From Actinomycetota bacterium (GTDB taxonomy: Bacteria; Actinomycetota; Geothermincolia; Geothermincolales; RBG-13-55-18), in contig JAQVFR010000001.1 of assembly GCA_028697145.1 (NCBI GenBank), positions 124,001 through 188,000 on the forward strand: a DNA stretch of 64,000 nt, in the 5' to 3' direction. Positions within the stretch are counted from its first letter, which is position 1. Each line of letters opens with the position of its first letter. Shown here piece after piece: positions 13,117 to 25,603 of the stretch. The notes under the pieces are model-generated. The model was given only the letters and a program-made list of their open reading frames with translations. It made no database searches and was not told where the DNA came from. A program made the position numbers and the translations under genes.

Positions 13117-13144
13117 GAAAAGGGCCGCTCGCGCGGCCCTTTTC
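13117..13144. terminator. Bidirectional terminator between the small membrane gene and the rRNA operon
   Basis: A perfect 12-bp inverted repeat GAAAAGGGCCGC / GCGGCCCTTTTC with a four-base TCGC loop. The A/T ends give a T-rich tail on both strands, so it can end the rRNA operon (minus) and the DUF2892 gene (plus). Confidence 0.85.
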
Positions 13145-13151
13145 GAATAGT

Positions 13152-13271
13152 GTTCCGGCAGCGACCTACTCTCCCACACGGTCCCCCGAGCAGTACCATC
13201 GGCGCTGGAGGGCTTAACTTCTGTGTTCGGAATGGAAACAGGTGAACACCTCCGCCATGGCCACCGAGAAC
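13152..13271 (-). rRNA. 5S ribosomal RNA
   Basis: About 120 bases with the conserved CCGAACACAGAAGTTAAG loop and GCGCCGATGGTA segment; the ends GTTC and GAAC pair. It is the last gene of the rRNA operon, about 65 bases after the 23S gene and just before the terminator. End positions are good to a few bases. Confidence 0.92.
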
Positions 13272-13306: not shown

Positions 13307-13327
13307 CGTACCTTCAAAACTGCACAG
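13307..13327 (-). other. 23S processing stem, 3' arm
   Basis: This 21-base segment is complementary, with one mismatch, to 17483-17503 just before the 23S gene. Together they would form the long helix cut by RNase III during 23S maturation. Confidence 0.75.
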
Positions 13328-13473
13328 CAATCTCCGAGGTTTAAGACCAAGCCCTCGACCTATTAGTACCGGTCAGCTGCACACGTTACCGTGCTTCCAC
13401 TTCCGGCCTATCAACCTTGTGTTCTACAAGGGGTCTTACCCGGTTACCCGGTGGGAGAACTGATCTCAGGGTC

Positions 13474-13506
<33 letters not shown>

Positions 13507-13622
13507 GATCCGAACGTGGCCAACCAGCCGTGCTCCTGGCGGAACAACTGGCACACCAGAGGTCCGTTCACCCCGGTCCTCTCGTACTAGGGGCAACTCC
13601 CTTCAATTCTCCTACGCCTGCA

Positions 13623-13655
<33 letters not shown>

Positions 13656-13671
13656 AAACCCAGCTCGCGTA

Positions 13672-13708
<37 letters not shown>

Positions 13709-13712
13709 ACTC

Positions 13713-13767
<55 letters not shown>

Positions 13768-13768
13768 G

Positions 13769-13823
<55 letters not shown>

Positions 13824-13959
13824 CGGCTCTCCCACATGAATGCCGCCGGATCACTAGGCCCTGCTTTCGCACCTGCTCGACTTGTGAGTCTCGCAGTCAA
13901 GCTCCCTTCTGCCCTTACACTCTACAGCTGATTGCCGACCAGCTTGAGGGAACCTTTGG

Positions 13960-14011
<52 letters not shown>

Positions 14012-14160
14012 ACACTGTCCCGCAACCGGATAACGGTTGTCGGTTAGAGCCCCAGCACATCAAGAGTGGTATCCCAAGGATGGCTCCACGAGGACTGGCG
14101 TCCTCGCTTCAAAGCCTCCCACCTATCCTGCACATGATGAACCAAAGCCCAATATCAGGC

Positions 14161-14194
<34 letters not shown>

Positions 14195-14264
14195 TGCAGG
14201 TAGCCCGCATCTTCACGGGCATTGCAATTTCGCCGAGTCCCTCGTTGAGACAGCGCCCAAGTCG

Positions 14265-14319
<55 letters not shown>

Positions 14320-15166
14320 CTCTGTTTGTTACTCCCAACCTCAGGGGGTTGGTGGCCAGGTCATTTCTGCCTGGCTCTCCATGTCGCCATGGAGGTCGGA
14401 CTATATCATCACTCAGCGCTTTTCAGCGTATTCATCCAACTCGGCATTCGCGTTCGACTGTTCACCTGCGCTGAGCGCCTGGCGTATAGTCTCTGAGGAT
14501 TCTAGACCTAGGATTCTAGACCTCGAATCTGTCAAGGATCTCCTTGTCACCATACTTCCGCTTCCCGCCACCGTTCATCTCCTTCCTTATCTTCAGGATT
14601 TCTTCAATCCCTTCCTTCTGGAGATGTCGGCCATCAGCTATTATCGAGGCGATTTGCTTGAATTTGCTGTAATCCCTCTTCTTTTTAGCTGATCTGAACC
14701 GGAACTTGTCGAAGAATGGAACCACATTATTCCGTATGGCATTGAAGTTATTCACCTCGAAATACCATATCCCATCATCTCTCTGTCTCATGGTTCCACA
14801 GTCCATATACCTCTTGAACTGCGTCAATATCTCCTTCTCGTTCTGAGAAATATTGAAACATAGAGAGACTTTCCAGGGTTGGATGTAGTCCTTGCGCGGC
14901 CGAAACACGACGTGGAAGCTTCCCTCCCCATCCGCGAATCCGGCCAAGTACCACCCTACTTCGGGTGGTATTTTCTTAACGTCAAGCACTAGTGTTGTCC
15001 ATTCTTTCTGGAGATCCTCGCTTAGGTCCAGCCTTTCCTGCTGATTGTCCGCACCCGCCGCATTGTCACCTATCATCATGAGGATATCATCCCGATATGA
15101 CAGGTAGCGCGGGATACTCGGATGTTCCAGCATATAGCCAGGTTTGGTAACGGCCCATGAAGATAG
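14320..15166 (-). mobile_element. Group I intron at 23S position 1923, carrying a homing endonuclease gene
   Basis: An 847-base insert after U1923 (E. coli numbering), the same site as the I-CeuI intron of Chlamydomonas. The 5' exon end AACGGU pairs with an internal guide GCCGUU about 12 bases into the intron, with the usual U-G wobble at the splice site; the intron ends in G before CCUAAGG. Core elements are visible: P/Q region with CAATCAGCAGG (about 15035-15051, minus strand), R element CTCAGAGACTATACGCC (14481-14502 region) and S element GATATAGTCC (14398-14410 region), whose GACTATA/TATAGTC pair forms P7. The endonuclease gene sits between Q and R, in the P5/P6 region. Confidence 0.9.
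14516..15133 (-). CDS. LAGLIDADG homing endonuclease within the 23S intron
   Basis: The C-terminal ~165 residues are a single-motif LAGLIDADG protein: the motif is WYLAGFADGEGSF, followed by a beta-sheet region (KVSLCFNISQNEKEILTQF) and a typical NNFNAIRNNVVPFFDKF segment. A single motif implies that it acts as a homodimer, as I-CeuI does at the same rRNA site. The true start is unresolved: the frame is open back through the intron core, and possible starts are the ATG at 15133, later ATGs, or a GTG just before LDVKKIPPEVGW. The C-terminus ends shortly before the R element. No frameshift or stop is seen, so it may be active. Confidence 0.85.
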   Translation of the reverse strand: MLEHPSIPRYLSYRDDILMMIGDNAAGADNQQERLDLSEDLQKEWTTLVLDVKKIPPEVGWYLAGFADGEGSFHVVFRPRKDYIQPWKVSLCFNISQNEKEILTQFKRYMDCGTMRQRDDGIWYFEVNNFNAIRNNVVPFFDKFRFRSAKKKRDYSKFKQIASIIADGRHLQKEGIEEILKIRKEMNGGGKRKYGDKEILDRFEV

Positions 15167-15178
15167 ACCGTTATAGTT

Positions 15179-15427
15179 CACCTATTCCCCATGTCGCCAT
15201 GCGGGGTGGACCATATCTTCTCCCTGGTCTTGGTGGACCAGGGGCCCGGCGTATGGCCTCTGAGGATTCCCGGACTTGTGGTCCGGGCCTTTCCTGCTGA
15301 TTGTCCGCACTCCGTGGATTGTCACTGCCTCCCTGGGGTGGAGGCGAGTACCAGGAGATACTCGGAGTTTCCAGCATATAGCCGGGTTTTTCCTATCCGG
15401 TCACCCGGATAGGGCCGCAACTCGTTT
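15179..15427 (-). ncRNA. ORF-less group I intron at 23S position 1911
   Basis: A 249-base insert after U1911. The 5' exon end GGCCGU pairs with an internal guide GCGGCC ten bases into the intron, with a U-G wobble at the junction, and the intron ends in G before AACUAU. The core matches the neighbouring intron: CAATCAGCAGGAAAGG (15288-15310 region), CCTCAGAGGCCATACGCC (15248-15269 region) and GATATGGTCC (15208-15220 region), forming P7 with one compensated base-pair change relative to the other intron. P6 is closed by a CCCGGAC/GTCCGGG hairpin where the other intron has its endonuclease gene. Confidence 0.9.
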
Positions 15428-15646
15428 ACGGCCGCCGTTCACCGGGGCTTAGGTTCAGAGCTTCGCGTGCCGGCCGAAACCGGCCGCTAACCCTTCCCCT
15501 TAACCTTCCGGCACCGGGCAGGCGTCAGCCCCTATACGTCGTCTTACGACTTTGCAGAGACCTGTGTTTTTAGTAAACAGTCGCTTGGGCCTGTTCACTG
15601 CGACCCCCTCACGCTTAGGGAGCGGATCCCATCACGCTAACGGGGT

Positions 15647-15680
<34 letters not shown>

Positions 15681-16847
15681 GAGTTCCTTAACGAGGGTTA
15701 TCTCGATCGCCTTAGTATTCTCTACTCGCCCACCTGTGTCGGTTTGGGGTACGGGCACCAGACAGCTCCCTAGGGGCTTTTCTCGGCGGCATGGATTCAG
15801 CGACTTCCCCTATAAGCGGGTCGGCATCGCGCCTCAGGCTTGTGTGCCGCCAAGCATTTGACTCGGCAGCGCCCTGCACGCTTACCCGCGGTCGACCAGC
15901 GCCGCGGTTCGCTTATCCTTCCGCGTCCCCCCATCAGTCAAACACTGACTGGTGGTACCGGAATATAAACCGGTTATCCATCGACTACGCCTCTCGGCCT
16001 CGCCTTAGGTCCCGACTAACCCTGGGTGGATTAACCTTCCCCAGGAACCCTTGGGCATTCGGCGGACGGGTTTCTCACCCGTCTTTCGCTACTCATACCG
16101 GCATTCTCTCTTCCCTGCGGTCCATCGATAAATCCCTTACGGGAAACCCTTCCGGGTCGACTTCACCCCCCAGGGAATGCTCCCCTACCCATCATGCCCG
16201 AAGGCACAATGCCGCAGCTTCGGTATCGGGCTTGAGCCCCGCTACATTATCGGCGCGAAACCACTTGACCAGTGAGCTATTACGCACTCTTTCAATGGTG
16301 GCTGCTTCTAAGCCAACATCCTGGTTGTCTGGGCAATTTCACATCCTTTCCCACTTAGCCCGAATTAGGGACCTTAGCTGGCGGTCTGGGCTGTTTCCCT
16401 TTTGACCATGGAGCTTATCCCCCACAGTCTGACTCCCGGGTTCTGGAGCCATGGCATTCGGAGTTTGACTGGGTTTGGTAACCGGTGAAGGCCCCTAGTC
16501 CAATCAGTGCTCTACCACCAAGGCTGAACACCCGAGGCTAACCCAAAAGCTATTTCGGGGAGAACCAGCTATCTCCGAGTTTGATTGGCCTTTCACCCCT
16601 ACCCACAGGTCATCCCCTCCGTTTTTAACCGAAGTGGGTTCGGTCCTTCACGAGGTCTTACCCTCGCTTCAACCTGCCCATGGGTAGATCACTCGGCTTC
16701 GGGTTTACGGCACGCAACTAAGTCGCCCTGTTAAGACTCGCTTTCGCTTCGGCTCCGGGTATACCCCTTAACCTCGCTGCGTACCGGTAACTCGCCGGCT
16801 CGTTCTACAAAAAGCACGCCATCACGGCTCGAGGCCGCTCTGACAGT

Positions 16848-16882
<35 letters not shown>

Positions 16883-16888
16883 CCTCCC

Positions 16889-16936
<48 letters not shown>

Positions 16937-17184
16937 CAGGGAGTATTTAGCCTTGCGGGGTGGTGCCCGCGGATTCCGACGGGATTTCCCCGGTCCCGCC
17001 GTACTCAGGATACCCTCCGGGAGATCCATTCCTTTCGCCTACGGGGCTGTTACCCTCTGTGGCGGATCTTTCCAGGATCCCTCGACTAGAAATGGATTTT
17101 GTAACTCCCCGGTGCCTCCGCAACGACACCTGGAAGGTCCTTCAACCCCTGACGGACAACGCCTGCGGGCTATCACATCCGCCA

Positions 17185-17228
<44 letters not shown>

Positions 17229-17482
17229 CGGTTGCTTTCTTTTCCTCGGGGTACTTAGATGTTTCAGTTCCCCCGCTTGCCTCCTCACGCCCTATGTGTT
17301 CAGGCGTGGGTACCGGCGCATTACCACCGGTAGGTTCCCCCATTCGGAGATCTCCGGATCAAAGCCTGTTAGGCGGCTCCCCGAAGCTTATCGCAGCCTG
17401 CCACGTCCTTCATCGGCTCCTGGCACCTAGGCATCCACCGTATGCTCTTAGTAGCTTGGTATTTAAACAACCTCTTCGATCA

Positions 17483-17503
17483 CTGTGCAGTTTTCAAGGT
17501 ACG
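17483..17503 (-). other. 23S processing stem, 5' arm
   Basis: This segment is complementary to 13307-13327 with one mismatch and lies about 20 bases before the 23S 5' end. It is the upstream strand of the presumed RNase III processing helix. Confidence 0.75.
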
Positions 17504-17615
17504 ATTCCGAGCTAAGAGCGCACCTAACCGGTGCGCCCAAAGAGACATCCTATAATAATTATAAGCCCGCGGTCAAGTGCAATTACACGACTTTTTCAGG
17601 CTTTTTGGGTCTTTG

Positions 17616-18137
17616 CTAGGCCTCCTGCATCTTCATGTACCCGCCTACGAGGGGTATCGCGGAGAAGATTATCGCCACTATCCAGGCGGCCCAGTTCATC
17701 GTCGACACGTCCCATCCACCAGGCCTGATAAGGATGCCGAGGATCACGCACAACAGCCCCGCCGCAGATGCTCCCAGGTATATCAGCCCTGCCGGCAGGT
17801 TGAGTTCGATGAAGTTGCCGAATTTGTTCGCAACCATGAACGCCGCGAAAAGGAACAGGAGGAAGAAGATAACCCACGGCAGCCATTGCCAATTACCCCT
17901 GTAGGTCACCTTGACGTCGAAGAAGATATCGCCCGCCCACTTGGCCTTGTACCAGCTGACTAGGGCCATGATCCAGGCAAGCAGTGATCCGACCAGTACT
18001 ACCAGGTCGGGTATGGGCAGCTTGGAGGTGTCCAGCTGCGCTCTCGGCGGACCTGCGGGAGCCTGTGGCGGCTGTCCCGGGGGCGGCGGGGGCGGTTGCA
18101 TTCCTCCCGGAGGAGGCCCTGGTGGTTGCTGTACCAT
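17616..18137 (-). CDS. Membrane protein with proline-rich N-terminus, encoded in the 16S-23S spacer
   Basis: A 173-residue protein of unknown family. Residues 1-33 are rich in Pro, Gly and Gln; residues about 43-62, 84-104, 115-137 and 148-166 are hydrophobic and fit four membrane helices. Between helices 1 and 2 is a Trp/Tyr-rich loop (WYKAKWAGD, TYRGNWQW). The ATG at 18137 has AAGGAG eight bases upstream; the frame is open to 18170. The gene lies on the rRNA strand inside the transcribed spacer, where a tRNA gene is normally found. It may be transcribed with the rRNA or from a weak local promoter near 18262-18295 (TTGCTA-N16-TAAATA). Its function is unknown. Confidence 0.8.
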   Translation of the reverse strand: MVQQPPGPPPGGMQPPPPPPGQPPQAPAGPPRAQLDTSKLPIPDLVVLVGSLLAWIMALVSWYKAKWAGDIFFDVKVTYRGNWQWLPWVIFFLLFLFAAFMVANKFGNFIELNLPAGLIYLGASAAGLLCVILGILIRPGGWDVSTMNWAAWIVAIIFSAIPLVGGYMKMQEA

Positions 18138-20057
<1,920 letters not shown>

Positions 20058-20178: not shown

Positions 20179-20197
20179 CGCTGTTTAGTTTTCAAGG
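20179..20197 (-). other. 16S processing stem, 5' arm
   Basis: The upstream partner of 18437-18455, in the leader between the promoters and 16S. Confidence 0.75.
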
Positions 20198-20231: not shown

Positions 20232-20260
20232 AAAGTAGCACTAGCGTCCAGGTCTGTCAA
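20232..20260 (-). promoter_or_regulatory. rRNA promoter P2 (proximal)
   Basis: On the minus strand TTGACA (20255-20260), 17 bases, TACTTT (20232-20237). It lies about 175 bases before the 16S gene. A GAGGCGG/CCGCCTC hairpin sits just upstream at about 20262-20287. Confidence 0.7.
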
Positions 20261-20390: not shown

Positions 20391-20419
20391 ATAATAACAC
20401 CTGAAAAAGGCCATGTCAA
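20391..20419 (-). promoter_or_regulatory. rRNA promoter P1 (distal)
   Basis: On the minus strand TTGACA (20414-20419), 17 bases, TATTAT (20391-20396). It starts only about 20 bases after the tyrS stop codon and lies 159 bases upstream of P2, giving tandem promoters as in other rRNA operons. Confidence 0.75.
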
Positions 20420-25141: not shown

Positions 25142-25175
25142 AAATATAAAGGCCCGACCTGTTACAGATCGGGCC
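25142..25175 (-). terminator. Minus-strand terminator hairpin with no gene ending at it
   Basis: GGCCCGAT-CTG / CAG-GTCGGGCC stem of 11 bp with one G-T pair and a TAA loop, followed on the minus strand by TTTATATTT. It lies upstream of the secreted-protein gene, so it may stop an upstream leader or act as an attenuator. Confidence 0.65.
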
Positions 25176-25603
25176 GGTTTCACCATTCGCTCCACCCAGC
25201 CACGGTGACCACTCGGAAGGCTGGGCTTCACAGCTTCCCCATGGTATTTTTCGCTCCCAAAGGACCTTCTGTGCCCTCTATGCGATAAATCCCTATAGGC
25301 TCTTTGTGAAAAAAGCGATTATCTTTGCTGACCATATAATTTTACCATTTTATTCATAACAATCAAGCCCTTATGGCAAGCAAGGCGACCCGTTGGGTCA
25401 GCCGCACTATCCGGTCGGCCGGCAATGAGGACGCCGCGATCCCGCCCGCGGACATAAAGGAGAGGGCCGCGCGGCGGCGAAGAGAGTTTCGGGTTAAGGG
25501 AACAAGGCGGCCTTCCGAGTTGGTCTAAAAAAGAGTTAGAATTGAGGCAGACGATGAGTCTGGCGCCGATGTGGGTACGATGCTGCGATTTCCGAGGTGA
25601 CCG

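Follow-up and report, generated by a model that had tools for sequence, protein, structure and literature searches.

A protein gene under purifying selection in the 16S-23S rRNA spacer of Candidatus Geothermincolia

Few transcription units are as conserved as ribosomal RNA operons, which are adapted to the production of structural RNA, and the stretch between the 16S and the 23S rRNA gene is normally without a protein gene. Protein genes in rRNA spacers are already known from CPR bacteria, where they occupy 16S-23S or 23S-5S spacers and often encode homing endonucleases (Lui et al. 2021, PMC8172020, Fig. 3C). In bacteria with unlinked rRNA genes, for which a spacer of more than 1500 bp is the threshold (PMC7761764, citing Brewer et al. 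2020), other genes stand between the 16S and 23S rRNA genes and the transcription of the two may be uncoupled. Here we describe a 16S-23S spacer in the window (the whole 64,000-nt stretch of DNA analysed, part of a 220,504-nt contig in a 2.98-Mb assembly that is 97.6% complete) from the class Ca. Geothermincolia of the Actinomycetota (the class of the window being deduced from sister records; NCBI puts Ca. Solincola in Ca. Geothermincolia). As in the CPR operons, a protein gene on the rRNA strand separates the 16S from the 23S rRNA gene while the operon is otherwise intact; however, gene content varies among the CPR genomes, whereas here one membrane-protein family is kept class-wide and one order has a conserved promoter-like element before the 23S rRNA gene. 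As with unlinked rRNA genes, a gene intervenes and the transcription of 16S and 23S may be uncoupled, but the spacer of 1049 nt is under the threshold and both the processing stalks and the 16S-23S-5S order are intact. Like ordinary Actinomycetota spacers, it lies on the rRNA strand between the 16S and 23S rRNA genes and holds no tRNA; in contrast to the 810-1689 nt of the complete spacers in the class, the 53 other Actinomycetota spacers surveyed (genomes whose 16S end fitted the search pattern, among the matches listed) had lengths of 99-525 nt (median 277), and no gene was recognisable in them. No homologue of the spacer gene was reported in these 53 spacers, nearly all of which are too short for such a gene. 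While protein genes in rRNA spacers are thus known, a membrane-protein gene kept throughout a class is new, and a literature search for a conserved gene of this kind in the 16S-23S spacer, with subscription papers mostly outside its reach, found no report.

The original prediction had described the spacer as free of tRNA and as holding a same-strand protein gene with its own ribosome site. Rfam placed the 16S (18511..20057), 23S (13343..17461) and 5S (13153..13268) rRNA genes on the minus strand, the 16S and the 23S each as the sole copy in the assembly, and the absence of a tRNA was borne out by ARAGORN, which found none in the window. The gene (17616..18137, minus strand) is an open frame encoding 173 amino acids, and the predicted ribosome-binding site, AAAGGAG (18144..18150, minus strand), is conserved in all order-level relatives. 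A longer frame of 184 amino acids with an ATG at 18170 was rejected: the order-level relatives all begin with MVQQ(P/A)PG behind the same ribosome site, which makes 18137 the likely start. Eleven order-level relatives carry homologues with 47-66% identity. In four close pairs dN/dS was 0.07-0.11 with substitutions mainly at third codon positions, and close pairs were 81-90% identical in the coding region vs 56-64% in the stretch from the 16S rRNA gene to the gene. The dN/dS values and the homologues rule out a chance open reading frame and confirm that the gene is real and under purifying selection.

With the window protein as query, 18 of 59 relatives gave a match, and nearly all strong matches were placed by Rfam between the 16S and 23S rRNA genes. 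A profile search of the class (genome sizes 1.7-3.9 Mb) gave matches in 22 of 31 genomes; in the window genome the spacer gene was the sole match. The 3' flank of the 16S rRNA gene was readable in 17 class genomes (G000, G003-G008, G010-G013, G017, G018 and G020-G023), the 16S rRNA gene being absent or truncated before its 3' end in the remainder, and the gene or a relative was present on the rRNA strand in all 17. Looking for the gene in the spacers of relatives, as had been proposed along with the prediction, found it or a relative in every readable case, and adjacent rRNA genes with the gene absent or broken were seen in none of the class genomes whose spacer could be read. Sixteen of the spacers are complete on both sides (the G008 contig stops behind the gene), and only two exceed 1500 nt (G010, 1689 nt; G020, 1678 nt). 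About 90-125 nt separate the 16S rRNA gene from the start of the first spacer gene in families f4 and f6. The G008 assembly, which is 62% complete, has extra 16S-like matches on contigs C127 (full length), C104 and C230, possibly contamination or further copies.

Reading the minus strand of the window in the direction of transcription, two rRNA promoter candidates were recognised upstream of the 16S rRNA gene, P1 (TTGACA-N17-TATTAT, 20391..20419) and P2 (TTGACA-N17-TACTTT, 20232..20260), and a G+C-rich inverted repeat followed by a T run behind the 5S rRNA gene (13118..13143) is the likely operon terminator. The 5' strand of the 16S processing stalk (CCTTGAAAACTAAACAGCG, 20179..20197) pairs with a 3' strand upstream of the spacer gene (CGCTGTTTAGTTTTGAAGG, 18437..18455), the leader-trailer duplex having -41.1 kcal/mol vs a shuffle mean of -12.5; for the 23S stalk (5' strand CGTACCTTGAAAACTGCACAG, 17483..17503; 3' strand 13307..13327) the duplex had -41.7 kcal/mol vs -11.5. 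These two stalks of RNase III type bracket the spacer gene in the window, and the motifs of the 16S trailer and 23S leader are conserved class-wide and flank a spacer gene also in two genomes outside the class (G251 and G410). No terminator-like site was found in the window either between the 16S rRNA gene and the gene or between the gene and the 23S rRNA gene. With moderate confidence, we propose that the gene is an ancestral, vertically kept membrane-protein gene that is co-transcribed within a single rRNA operon and excised as an mRNA. The rRNA promoters would drive transcription across 16S, spacer gene, 23S and 5S, and cuts at the two stalks would free the rRNA precursors and leave between them an mRNA of about 0.9 kb with a single cistron, a product expected from the general RNase III processing of rRNA. 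Because the mRNA would derive from the rRNA transcript, the dose of the gene would follow ribosome synthesis. Its presence in 17 of 17 class spacers, the low dN/dS, the framing stalks, the lack of a terminator-like site in the window spacer, the position close behind the 16S rRNA gene in f4 and f6, and a promoter-like element before the 23S rRNA gene in all readable Geothermincolales all argue for co-transcription.

This promoter-like element (TTGACC-N18-TAGGAT, 17547..17576, minus strand) lies between the gene and the 23S rRNA gene. In the window alone it was the single promoter-like match of a scan, about what chance would give (1 match vs 0.9 expected); it gains its weight from the comparison across Geothermincolales (families f1 and f3 as used here), where TTGAY-N17-19-TAnnnT, mostly as TTGACC...TAGGAT, occurred in 11 of 11 readable members and in about 1.3% of shuffles. 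It was found in none of six other coding spacers and in none of the 53 survey spacers. In 11 of 11 members a hairpin (17516..17538 in the window, minus strand) formed just 3' of the point where a transcript from this putative promoter would start, and at one position paired changes were noted by eye (C-G, U-G and U-A in G000, G005 and G012, respectively); because MAFFT alignments were out of register, the stems were assessed from the fold of each individual sequence. Close pairs share 86-93% identity over the pre-23S segment, which matches the conservation of the coding region. Under co-transcription, this putative extra promoter in Geothermincolales would boost 23S-5S transcription and probably offset polymerases that are lost across the coding insert or stopped at a hairpin after the 16S rRNA gene.

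The same signals fit, in Geothermincolales, a serious rival to co-transcription, namely an operon split into three units by a terminator after the 16S rRNA gene, a promoter of the gene's own and a 23S-5S promoter, which would untie the protein from ribosome synthesis; we regard this as possible but doubtful. In 8 of 12 f1/f3 spacers the 16S stalk is followed by a hairpin and T run that could end transcription (beyond shuffles in six, not clearly so in G011 and G008), and an extended -10 (TGNTATA[AG]T) upstream of the gene was present in 4 of 11 members (shuffle mean 0.06); both features favour an independently transcribed gene. By the same criteria, however, the terminator is absent in the window, G007, G003 and G017, the extended -10 is missing in seven members including the window, and families f4-f6 hold spacer genes with neither a post-16S terminator nor a 23S promoter. 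Moreover, the antitermination of rRNA transcription can override terminators. The division signals suggest that in Geothermincolales the spacer gene could also be its own unit, and the operon may be partly divided in some members; across the class, co-transcription is the simplest reading of the sequences.

A more far-reaching version of co-transcription, which we put forward only tentatively, is that the locus is a standing unit for the co-expression of ribosomes and a membrane protein, in which the mRNA would arise as a by-product of rRNA maturation and a dedicated 23S promoter would balance the subunits. On this view, other families of actinobacteria took up the same protein family at the same site between the 16S and 23S rRNA genes, a recruitment that would suggest a functional tie between the protein and ribosome production. 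Outside the class, a distant relative lies in the spacer in families f27 (G251) and f76 (G410), and in G409 (f27) a relative frame without a start codon is directly upstream of the 23S rRNA gene, with no 16S rRNA gene in reach. Many more relatives occupy non-spacer sites across the phylum. They share the four-helix domain by profile, often with zinc-ribbon or proline-rich tails, and lie elsewhere in the chromosome without linkage to rRNA genes, which indicates that such linkage is not required by the domain family as such. Their neighbours, read by eye, were varied and had no shared theme; among them were genes read as 3-dehydroquinate, folD-like, purA-like and response-regulator genes, and in two families relatives (L037, G018:C16; L039, G030:C23) stand beside apparent 3-dehydroquinate synthase and dehydratase genes.

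In a quick gene tree with weakly supported deep branches, a single group of the A-type spacer genes of the class (the kind found in the window) was not rejected (p-AU 0.072), but one that also included f27 and f76 was (p-AU 0.007). These results make repeated capture likely and leave the number of captures uncertain; the gene was thus likely, but not certainly, captured more than once, f27 and f76 apparently separately. Alternatively, the family could be selfish or freely transferring, inserting beside rRNA genes in the manner of homing endonucleases and finding a safe harbour in the spacer. We consider this unlikely: the occurrence in spacers of the class, f27 and f76, the rejected single origin and a copy number of one to three would fit it, but the protein has no endonuclease, integrase or transposase domain, the gene is in every readable class spacer under strong purifying selection, and one origin within the class was not rejected. 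An artefact, either a misassembly or a chance frame over a non-coding spacer, can be dismissed, since, even though rRNA genes are frequent break and chimera sites in metagenome assemblies and several class genomes end inside the 16S rRNA gene, 17 independent genomes share this layout, in some cases within contigs of about 194-305 kb, and the selected frame keeps its start and ribosome site.

The class spacers contain one to three genes each, of three related four-helix kinds. The proline-rich start of type A is limited to f1/f3. Type B, which adjoins the 16S rRNA gene and has the motif SPGW[VL]Y, was found in G017, G018, G020, G022 and G023, and the third kind in G020, whose spacer (L030, 901-2580; 1678 nt) carries three four-helix genes in tandem. 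The spacer of G010 has two type A genes. Type B genes also occur outside the spacer, with no rRNA gene within 1.5 kb: G001 (L034, C92), which belongs to the same genus as the window genome, has one and G028 has two. The family can also stand last in the operon: in G029 (L031, C322, 678-1124) the gene immediately 3' of the 5S rRNA gene is a relative of the spacer gene.

The proline-rich N-terminus and four helices read from the window sequence stood up to sequence comparison and to an AlphaFold2 prediction with ten sequences, which gave helices at residues 42-71, 86-107, 116-136 and 149-172 (helix cores mostly pLDDT 80-95; model mean 71.9) and a disordered proline-rich N-terminus. A fold search against the PDB had no match under E 0.001; the top rows included claudin-, TARP- and synaptogyrin-like tetraspan proteins at a non-significant E of 0.065-0.2, and the comparison with claudin/TARP/MARVEL-like folds reached a best E of 0.065 with TM-scores of about 0.4-0.5. 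Searches of the spacer proteins against Pfam, NCBIfam and PDB sequences gave nothing above cut-off, including no LAGLIDADG, HNH, GIY-YIG or other nuclease domain in Pfam and NCBIfam. Two candidate domains were rejected, DUF4231 (PF14015; 13.2 bits vs a gathering cut-off of 24.7) and DUF5336 (PF17270; below the gathering cut-off, best E 0.013, in 2 of 16 members). Our guess, from the position of the gene, is that the protein would most likely be an envelope component that the cell requires in amounts scaling with growth.

A strongly selected protein gene kept throughout a class, with a conserved promoter-like element next to it, shows that there is room for an mRNA gene in an rRNA operon. It offers a natural case for studying the balance of 16S to 23S, antitermination, processing by RNase III and growth-linked control in an operon where translation may start inside the pre-rRNA. 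In practice, filters on spacer length and amplicon schemes based on 16S-23S will give a wrong picture of these lineages, and spacer genes of this kind may be dropped during annotation as false open reading frames.

The 23S locus of the window is about 1.2 kb over the Rfam model length owing to an intron. A group I intron (RF00028) lies at 15187-15437 on the minus strand within the 23S rRNA gene, and a LAGLIDADG open reading frame of 221 amino acids (14516-15181, minus strand; Pfam E 1.3e-18), separate from the spacer gene, is in the 23S intron. The 23S locus of G251 (L138, 828-4338, minus strand) is 3.5 kb long, about 0.6 kb over the model, suggesting an insert there as well. Elsewhere in the window, a c-di-GMP-II-GAG riboswitch was found at 25164-25247 on the minus strand (52.4 bits).
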